This document shows positions 49,467 to 61,293 of a DNA stretch of 64,000 nt, piece after piece. Within the stretch, counting starts at the first letter, position 1. Each line of letters begins with the position of its first letter. Where the stretch lies: positions 1 through 64,000 of IMG/VR virus record IMGVR_UViG_3300037258_000282; one strand, written 5' to 3'. The notes under the pieces were generated by a model. The model was not told the origin of the DNA, searched no databases, and saw nothing but the letters and a program-made list of their open reading frames with translations. The stretch comes from a virus. The position numbers and the translations under genes are program-made.

Positions 49467-49994
49467 TTATTCATCCTCAGTAGTGTCTGATATCATCTTG
49501 ATGTTACCGATAGCATATTTATTATCGAGATACACCTTAAAGTCGGTTCGATCAAAGATGTATTTCCAAAGCGAGGAAGATTTCTCGGCCATCTTGACCT
49601 TCACGTTCATATCTTCGATGACCTCGCCAGTCTCCCTGTCTACCGGCGCGACCCACCCGTTCTTAGTGGAGATCAAGTACTTACCCTCGAGAGCCTGCTC
49701 GACTAGTCCCGACCACCTATTCATTCCATCTTCAAATGTTATCTTGATGGGTATCTGGGACTTCTCCTTGAGAAAGCGAGACTTCTCAATGTTGATAATA
49801 AAGTCAAAGCCAAGCAGCTCCTTATCGGTGTTCTTATCCTGCCTCCTAGACACTATCCATATCGTATCGGCTCCAAAGTACACCCCCGTGTTATGACATA
49901 CGACACCATTCTCAAGTACGTACTGCTGGTTGCGTTCAACAGATATATCATACACTGACTGGTGCCCGACAGGTCTTATACTTTTTATTTTCAA
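49467..49994 (-). CDS. uvsX: UvsX C-terminal part with C-half of split intein
   Basis: A 175-residue protein. Residues 1-35 are a C-intein: VYDISVERNQQYVLENGVVCHN ends in the HN of intein blocks F and G, followed by Thr as the first extein residue. From residue 36 on it is the C-terminal third of UvsX (TGVYFGADTIWIVSRRQDKN...). TTG 49994 is preceded by AGAGGAAG. Trans-splicing with the product of 50030-50956 would give an intact UvsX of about 355 residues. Confidence 0.85.
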   Translation of the reverse strand: MKIKSIRPVGHQSVYDISVERNQQYVLENGVVCHNTGVYFGADTIWIVSRRQDKNTDKELLGFDFIINIEKSRFLKEKSQIPIKITFEDGMNRWSGLVEQALEGKYLISTKNGWVAPVDRETGEVIEDMNVKVKMAEKSSSLWKYIFDRTDFKVYLDNKYAIGNIKMISDTTEDE

Positions 49995-50029
49995 TTATCT
50001 TCCTCTTACAGTTATCGTCATGCCATCTC

Positions 50030-50956
50030 TTAACATATCATCAGTTTATCACGATCACTTATATCAGATACCAACTTCCACGATCCGTCATCCATCATAA
50101 ATTGATGGTCTTCAGAAACTGTTACCTTATATCCATCTTCAAACTCAACTTCGAAGCACCGTGGAGTTCCATCGCATAGAGTTTCTGGATTCCACACATG
50201 AGTAACTTGCATATCACCATCTAGCGTAACTACGCTGCTGCCCACACTCATACATTCCATAGGAAGTAGCGTACCATCGGCCATTTTCACTCTCGTTCCA
50301 GCGGCAACGCAACCACCAGATACCACCGGCTTTGAGTACATCTCCTGCGTCTGATACGTGTGGTTGATGACGACCATCGGTATGTTCTTCATCGGAAGGT
50401 GCGGAGTTACTATCCTGAACAGACTCTTGAGCTGCTTAGCTCGCGTCATATCGGCCGAGGACTTCTGATCCATCGCGTCCTCGACTTCCTTCTTCGACGC
50501 GATATTTCCAATCGAGTCGACCATGATGAAAACGCGATCGCCCTTTTTTAGCTTGGCGAGTTGAGCCGCGATATCAAACTTCAGCTCCTCGATATTGGTC
50601 ACGGGAGTGAGGACGACAGACTTCAGCGATATACCAAACATATCAAAGTATGACTTCGGCGTGCCGAACTCATTGATATAGAACAATATCACTCCATCTG
50701 GATACTTCTTTAAGTACTGAGACGCCAGGAACAAAGCGAAGCCAGACTTGAAGTTCTTTGACACTCCGGCGATTACCGTAAGTCCGGCCGTAAGTCCACC
50801 GTCGACCGAACCCGAGAGGGCCAAATTTATCATCGGCACCGACGTGGGAATGACGTCCCGATCGTTGAATATATCTGAATTTTCCAAAATATCAGTCGTG
50901 CTAATAGTGGAAGTTTCCAGTATCTTTTGCTGGAGGGTCAACTTTTCTGCTGCCAA
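50030..50956 (-). CDS. uvsX: UvsX N-terminal part with N-half of split intein
   Basis: A 308-residue protein. Residues 1-215 are RecA/UvsX: VIAGVSKNFKSGFALFL (Walker A), VFIMVDSIGNI (Walker B), VVINHTYQ, ending PVVSGG at the L2 region. From Cys 216 an N-intein begins: CVAAGTRVKMADG (block A) and TVSEDHQFM (block B, TxxH), stopping after about 93 residues at LMIC. Only 35 bases separate it from the C-half gene. TTG start behind the promoter at 51001-51029. Confidence 0.9.
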   Translation of the reverse strand: MAAEKLTLQQKILETSTISTTDILENSDIFNDRDVIPTSVPMINLALSGSVDGGLTAGLTVIAGVSKNFKSGFALFLASQYLKKYPDGVILFYINEFGTPKSYFDMFGISLKSVVLTPVTNIEELKFDIAAQLAKLKKGDRVFIMVDSIGNIASKKEVEDAMDQKSSADMTRAKQLKSLFRIVTPHLPMKNIPMVVINHTYQTQEMYSKPVVSGGCVAAGTRVKMADGTLLPMECMSVGSSVVTLDGDMQVTHVWNPETLCDGTPRCFEVEFEDGYKVTVSEDHQFMMDDGSWKLVSDISDRDKLMIC

Positions 50957-52145: not shown

Positions 52146-52502
52146 TCAAGCTCCGGCGATTGGTTTAAAAGATTCAGGAAGAATGACATTTGGCGGACTT
52201 CCCCTGAAGAAATGGGCAATATCTGTCGGGGTATATCCCGCGAGGCCGCACCCGATCGCTGTAACCTCAAATGTCATCTCCGTATGCTCTCTAGCGAACT
52301 CAATGAAATCTCTAACATATCTCTCTATCCAATCAAGTGGAAGAGTCCTGAGGTTCGCGTCCTTAGTAGGTATGCCATACGATCTACCCATCAGTCCAGT
52401 AGACCGTCCGTACACCGCGCCCTTGTACTTTTTAGCGTAGAGCGCGGCGCCCTTTCCGTGCCTTCCAGCCAGATTGGAGCCGAAGACGAAGATACTCTCC
52501 AT
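52146..52502 (-). CDS. A1S_2505-type (macro-domain-like) protein
   Basis: A 118-residue protein. IFVFGSNLAGRHGKGAALYA at the start, YGIPTKDANLRTLPL, and VTAIGCGLAGYTP match a small family often found in phages and annotated as macro-domain-like. ADP-ribose binding is suspected from the fold but not shown. Start overlaps the polymerase stop (TGATG). Confidence 0.7.
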   Translation of the reverse strand: MESIFVFGSNLAGRHGKGAALYAKKYKGAVYGRSTGLMGRSYGIPTKDANLRTLPLDWIERYVRDFIEFAREHTEMTFEVTAIGCGLAGYTPTDIAHFFRGSPPNVILPESFKPIAGA

Positions 52503-53611
52503 CAGAAGAACCTCTCAAGAGAACTCTTCTTCTCGAGAGTCCAACCGATCACGTCGACTATAGACTTAAGTGGCTCAAGAAACGCCTTATCAAACTGAAG
52601 GTTTCGATCTATGAAGTCCTCAAGTCCAAATTCAACCGGCATCCTCTCAGCTATCGATATCACGTTCTCACCTATTGGGTTTGGAAGTCTAAGGTACGCG
52701 AACTTCACCTTATCGCCATCCGATATGGGCTGAATAGTCTTGAGCCCATGCTCCCGACATAGGTGATTGAAGAGTAGAGCTCCCCTGACGGCAATTGGAG
52801 TCTTATCTCCGTATATCCTCTTATTGTCTGAGTACTTATCCATTCCGTTCACCGACCGGGGAAACGCTATGTCTTCAAACTTCAGTGCGTTGAACTCATC
52901 TCTGAACTTGTCGATAAACGCATATAGCTCTTCCTGACTTCCATGTAATATTATTCCTATGGCCTTCTTAATATTGTCTCGACAGACGTGTGGAGTTGAA
53001 GAGCGCACGGCCTCTATTCCAGACATCTTGATCTCAGGAGGATCGCACTTAACTCCCTCGATGTCCAGGGCTGAGAGAATATACATCTTTTTAGCTTTCC
53101 AGATAGATCTTCCAGCTATGGTTTCTCTCTTCATGTGCATCTTCTGCTGATATGCGCCCATTCTATGTTGAAGTTCGGCGTATATCTTTTCGAGCTTCGG
53201 GGCGATCTTCTCGCTTACGAACCTATCTAGGGCCGCGGTTATCTCGTACTTGTCTTTATCTCGACCTATCAACTCCACGATAGAGTCTAATTCAAGATAG
53301 ATGGAATCAGTATCGGATGCCACGACATAGTCTATTCCAGAAGTCTTGAGTAGAACGTTGATATACTGGTTGAGCTTCTTTTCTGTCCACCTGATCGTAA
53401 GCTGACCTGAAGAAGTCACTGCCTCAGCGTGGTTGAAGTCAAACCAGCGAAAATATTGATTCGCGAGCTAGAGCGCGCCGTAGAACGAGTTGAGAGATGT
53501 CTTCATAGATAACTGAAGATTGTGATACTTCGAGATCTCATTTTTCAACTGTTCACGACGCGCTAAAAGCTCCTCCTTTCTCAAGGCGCTAACCTTTTGC
53601 ACTTCCGTCAT
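52502..53611 (-). CDS. 43: DNA polymerase gp43, C-terminal part, interrupted by amber codon
   Basis: From ATG 53611 (ribosome site GGGAGGTGAT) the frame codes for a coiled N-terminus then LNSFYGAL, the core of polymerase motif B, and meets TAG at 53470-53468. The same frame continues ANQYFRWFDFNHAEA, then SDTDSIYLEL (motif C, metal site) to the end at 52502. Reading straight through would give 369 residues. The arrangement CTC-TAG-CTC means a hop between the two CTC codons restores the consensus exactly. Without bypass only a 47-residue peptide results. Confidence 0.85.
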
Positions 53612-53636
53612 CTATCACCTCCCTCTTAAGTATAGA

Positions 53637-55088
53637 TCAAAGTTTAACTAACTCAGCGTTTACCACCGCCAGCTCCTTCTTGGCGTTGAGCATTAGCTTC
53701 TTATACTTTACTCGTCCATCGTATAGCTTCTGCATGATCTCTGGAAGAAAACCAGACTTGTCCTTCCTATACGCGCAACCATTCGCGGCAAACGAGAAGC
53801 TCTTCCTATCATACTCTGATAGTGGATCTTCGCCCGTAAGCAGTTCATCTATCTTCGGAAAATTATGATACCTAGTTGAGAACATCTCCGGTGAGATATT
53901 GTACTCCATAATTAAATGTGGGTAGAGTGAGTCCAAATCGAGAGACACGACCCACCTAGACTCACCTATCTTCGGCTCCTTGACGTATCCTCCCATGAGG
54001 GAGTCAAACATCGTAGACTTCTTCACCGGAGGAATCACTATACCCTGGTTCATCAAGTGAGAGTGTATGATCATATCAGACGGGCGAAGGGTGGTGAGAG
54101 TATCTATATAGTTGACTTTAGCCAAGTACGCGTAGGCTACGACCTGCTCCAAAAACTTAAGCTTCTCCTCCAGCTTCTCGACTAGAATGCAGTCCCTCAC
54201 GTTGTAGTCTATATACTTCGTAAAGTCTGCTCGGTATATATCCATGAGGTTTCCATACTCAGAGTAGTCCAACTTCTGCTCGTTGAGCTCGACCTTGGAG
54301 ATATAGTCTAGCTTATACGACTCAGAGTTTCCAAACTTAAACTTTCTATAGAGCTGATAGTAGTCCAGAACACTGACTCCAACTATCACGTAGCTGTGAT
54401 TGGTCTTATTGTGGAACGCTACCTCATTTATATCCAAGATCTTCCACGGTGAGAGTCTAAGAGTCCACGACTCACCTATAACCGCTCGTATCCTATTGAT
54501 AAGATATGGAATGTCGAAGAACTCTATGTTCCATCCAGTCACTATATCTGGGGATATAGACTCCCAGCACCTCACTACCATCTGGAGAAGCTCTATCTCA
54601 TCGTGGCACTTCACGTACTCGATCGATGGATCAGTTCCGAGATACTCCTCGCACCCAAATACCATAGACTTACCGCGAAACCTCAGAGTCACTGCCGTGA
54701 TCTCTTGGTCCGCTCGAACTATCGATGGAAATCCTGAGTCAAACTTACACTCCAAGTCTAGAGTGATAGTTCTTATCATAGAGAAGTCGTGCTCTATTAA
54801 GTCTGGAAACTTATCGTATATGTAGAGGTATTGAAAGTTATCCAGCCCGTAGATCTCAAAGTTATCGACGTCTTTGTACTTATCTACGAACGCCTTAGCG
54901 TCCTTGATGCTCGAAAAGTTCATCTTCCCAAACTTACGACCATCTAAAGATCTATACTCTCCCGTTGGAGATGGAACGAACAGGTAGGGCTCGTACTCTA
55001 CGCATTCCTTGACGCGCAGTCCCTTGTCGTATCCGCGGTAAAATATCTTGTTACCGCGCTTAAGTACAGAAGTGTAGAATTCTACCAC
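53637..55088 (-). CDS. 43: DNA polymerase gp43, N-terminal part
   Basis: A 483-residue protein with the exonuclease and palm start of a family B polymerase: TITLDLECKFD (Exo I), VTGWNIEFFDIPYLINR (Exo II), YNVRDCILVEKLEE (Exo III), and VVSLDLDSLYPHLIM (motif A). It ends in the fingers helix; a stop, a 25-base gap and a new ribosome site lead to the C-terminal part. Split gp43 is known from Aeromonas T4-like phages. GTG start overlaps the small gene upstream. Confidence 0.9.
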   Translation of the reverse strand: MVEFYTSVLKRGNKIFYRGYDKGLRVKECVEYEPYLFVPSPTGEYRSLDGRKFGKMNFSSIKDAKAFVDKYKDVDNFEIYGLDNFQYLYIYDKFPDLIEHDFSMIRTITLDLECKFDSGFPSIVRADQEITAVTLRFRGKSMVFGCEEYLGTDPSIEYVKCHDEIELLQMVVRCWESISPDIVTGWNIEFFDIPYLINRIRAVIGESWTLRLSPWKILDINEVAFHNKTNHSYVIVGVSVLDYYQLYRKFKFGNSESYKLDYISKVELNEQKLDYSEYGNLMDIYRADFTKYIDYNVRDCILVEKLEEKLKFLEQVVAYAYLAKVNYIDTLTTLRPSDMIIHSHLMNQGIVIPPVKKSTMFDSLMGGYVKEPKIGESRWVVSLDLDSLYPHLIMEYNISPEMFSTRYHNFPKIDELLTGEDPLSEYDRKSFSFAANGCAYRKDKSGFLPEIMQKLYDGRVKYKKLMLNAKKELAVVNAELVKL

Positions 55089-57669: not shown

Positions 57670-58617
57670 CTAAAGCGGCGTGCACTCGACCATAACTTCC
57701 GTGATAAATGCCAAGAGATTGACCTCCTGGTCTGCGACGAAGGCCGATTGATACTGATACTTTGAGAGAGTGAGTATAAGCATAGGGATGGACGCCTGGG
57801 TGAAGTAAGTGGAGCACTGCTCGTAGAACTTCCTGTATATTCCCACGACGTCGTTATTCATGTTCTGGATCACCCACTGCCTGGCGCTGGAGTAATCCTT
57901 GTTCTTGATGTATATAATCAGCTCTGAGAATACCTCGTCCGTCATGCGAGCGAGTATTCCCGTGTCGATCGTGCCAGACGCTGAGTAAGTCTGGAGCTCA
58001 TTTAGCACTCTTCTCCAGTCTGGAAAATGCTTGGTGATGAGCTCTGCGACTATCGGCTTTTCAAACTTCACTCCCTCGTTGGATAGGATCGCGCAGGTCC
58101 TATGAAAGAAGGCCGACGCCATCTTTGCCTTCTCTTTGGAGTCGAAAGTAAACTCTACGAGAGAGCACCTCGAGTGAAGAGCTGGAATGATCTTATTCTT
58201 ATAGTTGCAGGTAAACATGAACCCGCAATTTCCAGAATACTCCTCCATAAAGTTTCGGAGAGCGGGCTGCGTTGAATTTGGATTGAGAAAGTCGGCCTCG
58301 TCGAGTATGACGTACTTCCTACCCCCGGTAAGTGACACTGAGGAAGCAAAGTTCGCGATCTGATTTCTCAGAGTGTCGATGTTTCCGTCGAGAGATCCAT
58401 TTATCACCATATAGTCTATGCCGAGCTGCTCGCACATAGCTCGCGCCGTGGTGGTCTTTCCTACTCCAGATGTACCCGCGAGGATCAGGTTCGGAATGGC
58501 CCCATTCTTGATGAACTCTCTAAACGACACTTTTATGCGATCTGGGAGTATGGTATCATCGATAGTCTGAGGTCTATACTTTTCTACCCAGAGAAATTCA
58601 TCAGGATTCGATTGCAT
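57670..58617 (-). CDS. 44: Clamp-loader ATPase gp44
   Basis: A 315-residue AAA+ clamp loader. WVEKYRPQTIDDTILP at the N-terminus, LILAGTSGVGKTTTA (Walker A, about 40-54), YVILDEADFL (Walker B, about 103-112), then TCNYKNKIIPALHSRCSLVEF with sensor 1 and the arginine-finger SRC. Loads the gp45 clamp. Confidence 0.9.
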   Translation of the reverse strand: MQSNPDEFLWVEKYRPQTIDDTILPDRIKVSFREFIKNGAIPNLILAGTSGVGKTTTARAMCEQLGIDYMVINGSLDGNIDTLRNQIANFASSVSLTGGRKYVILDEADFLNPNSTQPALRNFMEEYSGNCGFMFTCNYKNKIIPALHSRCSLVEFTFDSKEKAKMASAFFHRTCAILSNEGVKFEKPIVAELITKHFPDWRRVLNELQTYSASGTIDTGILARMTDEVFSELIIYIKNKDYSSARQWVIQNMNNDVVGIYRKFYEQCSTYFTQASIPMLILTLSKYQYQSAFVADQEVNLLAFITEVMVECTPL

Positions 58618-60009: not shown

Positions 60010-61293
60010 TTAGATTATCTTACCATACGCGGCATGTCCAGCATCCCATAGTCTAGTATATCCTGCCGCGATCATGTTTTCAACTTCGGTCTTATCTTCA
60101 TCAAAATTAGGAAGAGAATTCTTTAACTTATGTTTTTGACATGAGTATCTCGACGCTCTATCCCCAGTAGTCGAGTTAAAGTATTGATAAGACGGACTAG
60201 TCTCTTTAATTAAAGAAAAACCCAGAGTTTCATATACCGCACCGGTGAAGAACCTCCTATCACAGTAGCTGATCATGCTACCAGACACTCTCTTAGAGAT
60301 CTCTGACATCATCTTAGCCGGACCACCAACCACAGTAGTTCCGATCGCACTAGCAAGTCTTAGAAGTTCTAGGTCAAATCTCTTATTAAACCTAGGTCTT
60401 CCAACCGTCATCACGGATACTAAACTTTTCTTATGGAGAAGTCCGACTGCTAGAGAGTGTCCCACACTTCCCTGTACGTGATTCTCCTCCAAAAAGTTAC
60501 TCGCCACTCTCTTGTCTAATACCTCTATCTCACACTCTCTAGCCCATATCCTAGAGTTACGCCCCAGTGATGAAGTGATAATAGACTTAATCTTATCAAA
60601 GTTTTCGTCTATCTCATAGTCATATGGCTGAAGTAGTCTTATTCCTAACTCTCTGCACTTAAAAAACTTATCTCTATGATAGAACTTAAATTCATCACCA
60701 GAGTGCCAGTAGGCCCCATTTACCTCTATAGCTAACTTATTCGACCCAACGTATATGTCCAACTCTTTTGGAGAGATTATAGTCCTATCGTTAGTAGAAT
60801 ACTCTACTCCAATTGACGAGAGTAGGTCTCTAATCTTTCTCTCATATCTAGACTCAACTCTACTCTTATCTAACTCTATCTCGTTGAGATGCATGTACCT
60901 CTCAATGCAAGTTCTCTTCACTCCCAGAACGGTTCCTATCTCGGAGCAAGATAGACCACTACCATGGTATAGCTCTTGAAGCTGAGACCTCGAGAAATTT
61001 TTCTTTCTAAGAGATGAATTGTGTGTCACTCCGTATCTCTCGAGTAAAGTTCTAGAGCTCTTCTCTCTTACGGCGTCGACCTCAAATGCCGACCTAAACC
61101 CATGCCTCGCCGCGGTAGTATTCATTCTCTGATGAGAGTTATTCCAACTCTCATCCCCATGGCGTCGGAGTGAGGTCTCCCTCCTCTTAGATATCGTATC
61201 AGGATGCCTCATTGAGCATGAGGTAGAGCAAAACTTACTTGAGGTTCTACCATTAAGCTCCACGTCGCACGTGAGGCATCGCTTAAGTGGCAA
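60010..61293 (-). CDS. Vsr-like (EDxHD-type) homing endonuclease
   Basis: A 427-residue protein. N-terminal zinc motif (C6, C9, C22, C26), DNA-binding repeats of the NUMOD kind (RHGDESWNN, RHGFRSAFE, RYGVTHNSS), a helix-turn-helix (CSEIGTVLGVKRTCIERYM), then a Vsr-type nuclease core LAIEVNGAYWHSG with HRDKFFKCRELGIRLLQ. Related enzymes accompany split-intein genes in phages. It probably moved into the clamp region as a free-standing homing gene. TTG start overlaps the end of the upstream gene. Confidence 0.75.
   Translation of the reverse strand: MPLKRCLTCDVELNGRTSSKFCSTSCSMRHPDTISKRRETSLRRHGDESWNNSHQRMNTTAARHGFRSAFEVDAVREKSSRTLLERYGVTHNSSLRKKNFSRSQLQELYHGSGLSCSEIGTVLGVKRTCIERYMHLNEIELDKSRVESRYERKIRDLLSSIGVEYSTNDRTIISPKELDIYVGSNKLAIEVNGAYWHSGDEFKFYHRDKFFKCRELGIRLLQPYDYEIDENFDKIKSIITSSLGRNSRIWARECEIEVLDKRVASNFLEENHVQGSVGHSLAVGLLHKKSLVSVMTVGRPRFNKRFDLELLRLASAIGTTVVGGPAKMMSEISKRVSGSMISYCDRRFFTGAVYETLGFSLIKETSPSYQYFNSTTGDRASRYSCQKHKLKNSLPNFDEDKTEVENMIAAGYTRLWDAGHAAYGKII

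Follow-up and report, generated by a model that had tools for sequence, protein, structure and literature searches.

A TAG-led insert at one motif B codon of the split gene 43 of T4-like phages, read as a mobile cassette that would carry a minimal translational bypass in place of an intron

The gene 60 of phage T4 encodes a topoisomerase part, is associated with the HNH endonuclease mobA and contains a coding gap of 50 nt that ribosomes bypass between two Gly GGA codons (PMC3014915; PMC5009743). The gene 60 insert is thought to protect against the endonuclease and is possibly the remnant of an intron (PMC3014915; PMC5009743). A 2010 review on T4 asked whether other genes of T4-related phages use bypassing (PMC3014915), and a 2016 recoding review stated that shorter-gap counterparts of gene 60 had long been presumed, while no natural in-frame stop-hop was known (PMC5009743; the literature searched here was open-access). 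Synthetic stop-hops, in which matching codons surround a stop and nine nucleotides are decoded as one amino acid, were described by Weiss and colleagues, as far as the account in the recoding review goes (PMC5009743). In Magnusiomyces mitochondria, 81 bypass sites go together with relaxed decoding (PMC5009743). In another case, the DNA polymerase gene of Aeromonas phage 25 is split by a Seg endonuclease located between genes 43A and 43B, and the split polymerase is active (PMC2988022).

Here, we describe an interruption of gene 43 in a virus known from metagenomic sequence. The DNA analysed, called the window below, is a stretch of 64,000 nucleotides (positions 1 to 64,000) of the IMG/VR record IMGVR_UViG_3300037258_000282, which is 152,589 bases long. 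Gene 43 lies on the minus strand of the window and is split in two. The gene 43A (53637..55088) is an ORF ending in TGA that encodes the N-terminal part of a family B DNA polymerase, with the exonuclease domain and the first part of the polymerase domain (PF03104, E 1.6e-24; PF00136, E 1.3e-10). It is followed by a short junction (53612..53636) carrying the Shine-Dalgarno-like AGAGGGAGGTGATAG, where relatives have a gene for a GIY-YIG homing endonuclease, intact or as a remnant, that is gone in the window. The gene 43B (52502..53611) encodes the C-terminal part, starts with an ATG behind a strong ribosome-binding site and consists of 47 codons, a TAG and 321 open codons. The motif B, NSFYGAL, is encoded at 53471..53491 and ends in codon 47, the putative take-off codon CTC (53471..53473). 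The in-frame TAG at 53468..53470 (codon 48) would form a coding gap of 3 nt, and the putative landing codon CTC at 53465..53467 aligns with residue 570 of the RB69 polymerase, whose structure is solved. The frame thus reads MTEVQKVSALRKEELLARREQLKNEISKYHNLQLSMKTSLNSFYGAL, the stop, and then LANQYFRWFD..., and the CTC-TAG-CTC arrangement given in a preliminary description of this DNA is confirmed at 53473-53465. The segment past the TAG aligns with solved T4-type polymerases (E 3.5e-49) and holds the catalytic motif SDTDSIY at 53297..53317, so that the stop does part motif B from this motif, as that description had said. By protein, the window gp43 is of the T4 type, with at most 43% identity; among GenBank phages, there is no near relative at the DNA level.

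The TAG terminates 28 of the 161 long ORFs of the record and is therefore an ordinary stop in this genome, for which reason reassignment of TAG was rejected. ARAGORN counts 24 tRNA genes in the window, fewer than the 29 tRNA-like genes noticed at first, and the remainder of the record adds two tRNAs and a tmRNA; a suppressor tRNA with a CTA anticodon, reported as missing from the window, is missing from the whole record. Both the normal use of TAG and this lack of a tRNA speak against read-through, in which a near-cognate or suppressor tRNA would read UAG and give GAL-X-L-ANQYFRW, with two extra residues. Another CTT-TAG-CTT stands at the end of a gene 44-like ORF (57670-58617, minus strand), where the TAG apparently serves as an ordinary stop; matched flanks may therefore be insufficient for hopping on their own, and this ORF is a natural control for that point. 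No other PolB-like sequence is present in the whole record, which therefore lacks a second intact gene 43, named in the preliminary description as evidence that would speak against its reading.

The same interruption was found in other phages. When viral contigs were scanned with the C-terminus of 43B, 80 relatives were obtained, among them L062, which reads YGAL, a stop and then LGNRYFRW. Scans with degenerate patterns, either for a stop in motif B or for the 43B N-terminus, added L083, L084, L085/86/88/89, L123, L126/L140/L148, L128, L153 and L232, the last being one find of a broad scan for TAGC plus a gap, in which most of the matches listed were unrelated. In total, at least ten T4-like lineages (the window and nine others) carry a TAG-led insert at one codon of motif B, so the comparison of gene 43 among relatives, proposed earlier as a check, extends the interruption to nine further lineages. 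The gap is 3 nt in the window, in L062 (CTT-TAG-CTT), in the two lineages L083 and L085/86/88/89 (CTT-TAG-CTC) and in the two lineages L084 and L123 (CTT-TAG-CTA). It is 4 nt in L128 (CTT-TAGC-CTT), 6 nt in L153 (CTT-TAGTGA-CTC) and L232 (GGC-TAGCTA-GGC), and 8 nt in L126/L140/L148 (CTG-TAGCGAAT-CTG), for which there are three assemblies. The gap is mostly TAG alone, and TAG follows straight after the take-off codon in all ten lineages. A further scan for NxxYGA-CTN-TAG gave no additional lineage, a scan of bacterial and archaeal genomes for the interrupted motif gave 0 hits, and no cultured carrier was found among GenBank phages.

Because nine other lineages share the interruption, the TAG is not a matter of chance or error. 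An assembly error or a decayed gene might be considered, as these are metagenome contigs and several lineages have one contig each (L128 and L153 among them, with Ns in L153). Two of the ten lineages, however, occur in three or more contigs, and between L126 and L148 there are 9 differences in 4,528 aligned positions, none of them in the gap. Judged from codon comparison, both sides of the insert are under purifying selection (for the 15 codons past the landing codon, pS 0.96 and pN 0.23), the other replication genes are intact, and neither the window record nor eight other carrier records hold a second PolB, which makes error or decay the least probable of the explanations weighed here. The selection on the codons immediately past the stop also speaks against termination followed by reinitiation, which would give three polypeptides, namely 43A, a 47-residue 43B-N and a 43C from an internal start. 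In favour of it, the gene has already been split once, and Aeromonas phage 25 has an active gp43 in spite of its split (PMC2988022), but the first ATG, GTG or TTG lies 2, 3, 16, 18, 22, 31, 35 or 47 codons past the stop depending on the lineage, without conservation. Reinitiation would also leave the matched codons unexplained and is thus very unlikely.

The matched codons are a regular feature of the carriers. The flanks are CTN...CTN in all carrier lineages except L232, where they are GGC...GGC; in five of the ten lineages the take-off and landing codons are identical, and in the other five their first two bases are equal. Each of the take-off codons other than CTT (CTC, CTG and GGC) is paired with an identical landing codon, and TTG or TTA, used for the motif B Leu in 17 of 49 uninterrupted relatives, occurs in none of the carriers. 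The identity of the two codons, noted first for the window, holds there and is not strict in the family, since CTT/CTC and CTT/CTA pairs occur, which would require wobble. The matching flanks could also partly reflect a duplication at the origin of the insert. In having matching codons around a stop, gene 43B resembles the stop-hops of Weiss and colleagues as summarised in the recoding review (PMC5009743); those were synthetic, whereas this insert is natural, conserved and in an essential gene. Like the sites of Magnusiomyces mitochondria, the inserts are short, apparently skipped in translation and sometimes imperfectly matched, but only one site is concerned, which lies in a phage gene and includes a stop codon.

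The protein sequence itself points to a hop. Against a profile of 56 uninterrupted polymerase sequences, the hop product of the window scores 131.6 bits and the read-through product 122.4-122.7 bits, and in every carrier the hop product, with the expected family sequence GAL-ANQYFRW in the window, scores 8-11 bits above the products of read-through or frameshifting. No stop-free gene compared has extra residues between YG and GN. The gaps of 4 nt (L128) and 8 nt (L126) alter the frame, and a hop restores both the frame and the family sequence; stop suppression cannot yield the polymerases of L126 or L128. Read-through is consistent with the 3-nt and 6-nt gaps, which remain in frame, and with the wholly open downstream sequence, but it cannot explain the 8-nt form, found in three contigs, or the 4-nt form, would need two consecutive stops to be read in L153, and would cost about 9 bits for two residues present in no uninterrupted relative. 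Read-through is therefore unlikely. Another explanation combines a single-base frameshift in L128 (+1 at CUU UAG C, of the RF2 kind) and in L126 (-1) with read-through in the other lineages. The CUU UAG C of L128 does resemble the shift site of the RF2 gene, and the shifted frames are open. However, the polymerase tree places L084 and L128 as close sisters; with gaps of 3 and 4 nt, they would need different mechanisms, and frameshifting would add 2 to 4 residues in motif B, where the hop scores 9-11 bits better; this explanation is even less likely than reinitiation. A mini-bypass, as proposed at first for the window alone, is thus supported by the 4-nt and 8-nt gaps, the matching codons and the advantage in bits as the only reading that fits all ten lineages. 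On this comparative anatomy, gene 43B is probably expressed by programmed translational bypassing.

Signals that might assist the hop were also considered. The CGCG/CGCG stem described earlier around the TAG exists as letters, but it is absent from the predicted minimum-energy fold and not conserved, and across the carriers no consistent stem-loop was found, with z-scores mostly near zero. A hairpin was accordingly rejected as a bypass stimulator. The 43B N-terminus is conserved, and a similar one is present in split polymerases without the stop; it is therefore not specific to bypass, and a stimulating effect of the nascent peptide is not separable from what goes with the split.

The insert is accompanied by a homing endonuclease in most of the carriers. 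A Seg-type GIY-YIG endonuclease (PF19835, E 7e-6; phrog_314, E 2e-40) is intact between 43A and 43B in L083, L089, L084, L123 and L128, truncated in L062 and L232, and absent from the split in the window and L126; further relatives of this endonuclease sit at unrelated loci. In L083 and L089, the DNA that reaches from the end of 43A across the endonuclease to the insert is 96-100% identical, apart from one 50-base bin of 90% and two of 94%, while the flanking DNA is about 75% identical. This tract stops 8 nt past the T of TAG, at TAGCTCGG, where identity drops at once, and so the insert was transferred as a unit with the endonuclease. Such a tract is what a recent homing event with the insert as downstream border leaves behind, and this conversion border implies that the endonuclease would cleave there. 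On the polymerase tree, the bypass state requires 7 changes. Splitting and stop are separable, since L011 (5349-5903) and L012 (5319-5876) have an HNH endonuclease at the 43A/43B split and no stop in motif B, and in the cyanophages S-CREM2 and ACG-2014f gene 43 is split but lacks the stop. In L084, L128, L062 and L123, the last codons of the endonuclease ORF (e.g., AAAGGATGGATATG) include the start codon of 43B and its ribosome-binding site, which links the two genes translationally. In L084 (5245-6030, minus strand) and L128 (3077-3799, plus strand), 43A is itself divided by another endonuclease-like ORF, which lies on the opposite strand, and the polymerase would there come from three ORFs plus the bypass.

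In Aeromonas phages, the same codon holds an intron. The GenBank annotation of phage 25 gives 43B a group I intron as a further interruption, and in phages 25, phiAS4 and Aes508 the intron lies within the same motif B Leu codon, with predicted splice points in ...TAYGGNGCNT^intron^TNGGTAAC. Rfam RF00028 confirms group I introns in the three phages (64-73 bits), and in all three a GIY-YIG endonuclease sits where 43A and 43B are split in the carriers. The region of the window has no match to a group I intron (Intron_gpI), and this identity was rejected for its insert. The carriers thus share with phage 25, which has seg43(25) and a group IA2 intron (PMC2988022), the Seg-type GIY-YIG endonuclease at the split and the same Leu codon, whereas a self-splicing intron of about 300-400 nt in the one stands against 3-8 nt apparently skipped by the ribosome in the other. 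In the same endonuclease-split gene, one codon therefore holds either an intron removed from RNA or a gap of 3-8 nt that is apparently skipped.

Further elements were observed in the window and its relatives. In Aes508 (L284, 3810-6567), gp43B contains a split intein in addition to the group I intron, and the two intein halves enclose a VSR-like endonuclease ORF. The UvsX of the window (49467-50956, minus strand) is encoded by two ORFs that end and begin in intein halves, a naturally split intein, and a gene 41-like helicase ORF of L153 (10738-12066, minus strand) continues into an apparent N-terminal intein half. A 427-residue ORF of the window (60010-61293, minus strand) with DUF7487 and Vsr-like matches is probably, from these matches, another homing endonuclease. 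The tmRNA is permuted and of alphaproteobacterial type (RF01849, RF04321; L117:11655-11942, minus strand; record about 135355-135642), which suggests an alphaproteobacterial host for the window phage.

The likeness to gene 60, first noted for the codon arrangement, is stronger than it had appeared because the 43B insert moves with a homing endonuclease. In both systems, the gene is split by a free-standing homing endonuclease, the insert lies about 46-48 codons into the downstream gene, and TAG stands immediately behind the take-off codon. They differ in the gap (50 nt in gene 60, 3-8 nt in 43B), in the codons (Gly GGA, mostly Leu CTN), in the genes concerned (topoisomerase and HNH, DNA polymerase and GIY-YIG) and in the stem-loop, none being detected in the 43B carriers. 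We propose that a ribosome would translate 47 codons of 43B and arrive at CTC, with UAG then occupying the A site. The peptidyl-tRNA-Leu would release the take-off CTC, the mRNA would shift by 6 nt, the tRNA would re-pair with the landing CTC and decoding would restart at GCG, giving the exact family sequence GAL-ANQYFRW. As to origin, a Seg-type GIY-YIG homing endonuclease would have split gene 43 into 43A and 43B and presumably cuts the uninterrupted motif B. The TAG insert would be the protective part of the cassette that spoils the endonuclease site, the bypass would keep the polymerase alive despite it, and the window phage would since have lost the endonuclease. We infer the hop efficiency, the cleavage site and the replacement of intron by bypass from sequence comparison, and the best reading of the locus is a mobile cassette that would carry a minimal translational bypass in place of an intron.

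These phages probably carry a family of mobile cassettes in which a homing endonuclease spreads with a minimal stop-hop of 3-8 nt, and this hop has taken the place of a group I intron at that codon or given way to one. These would be the first natural stop-hops, with variable gap length and frame tolerated, and bypassing of the gene 60 type would have arisen repeatedly as a by-product of homing endonucleases. If the hop is confirmed, the 43B family would answer the points raised in both reviews (PMC5009743; PMC3014915), provide a nine-nucleotide system for the release and recapture of mRNA by the ribosome with natural gap variants of 3, 4, 6 and 8 nt, and give a second, independent tie of bypassing to homing endonucleases. 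The occurrence of an intron and an apparent bypass at one homologous site would make it directly testable whether bypass gaps are derivatives of introns or stand-ins for them.
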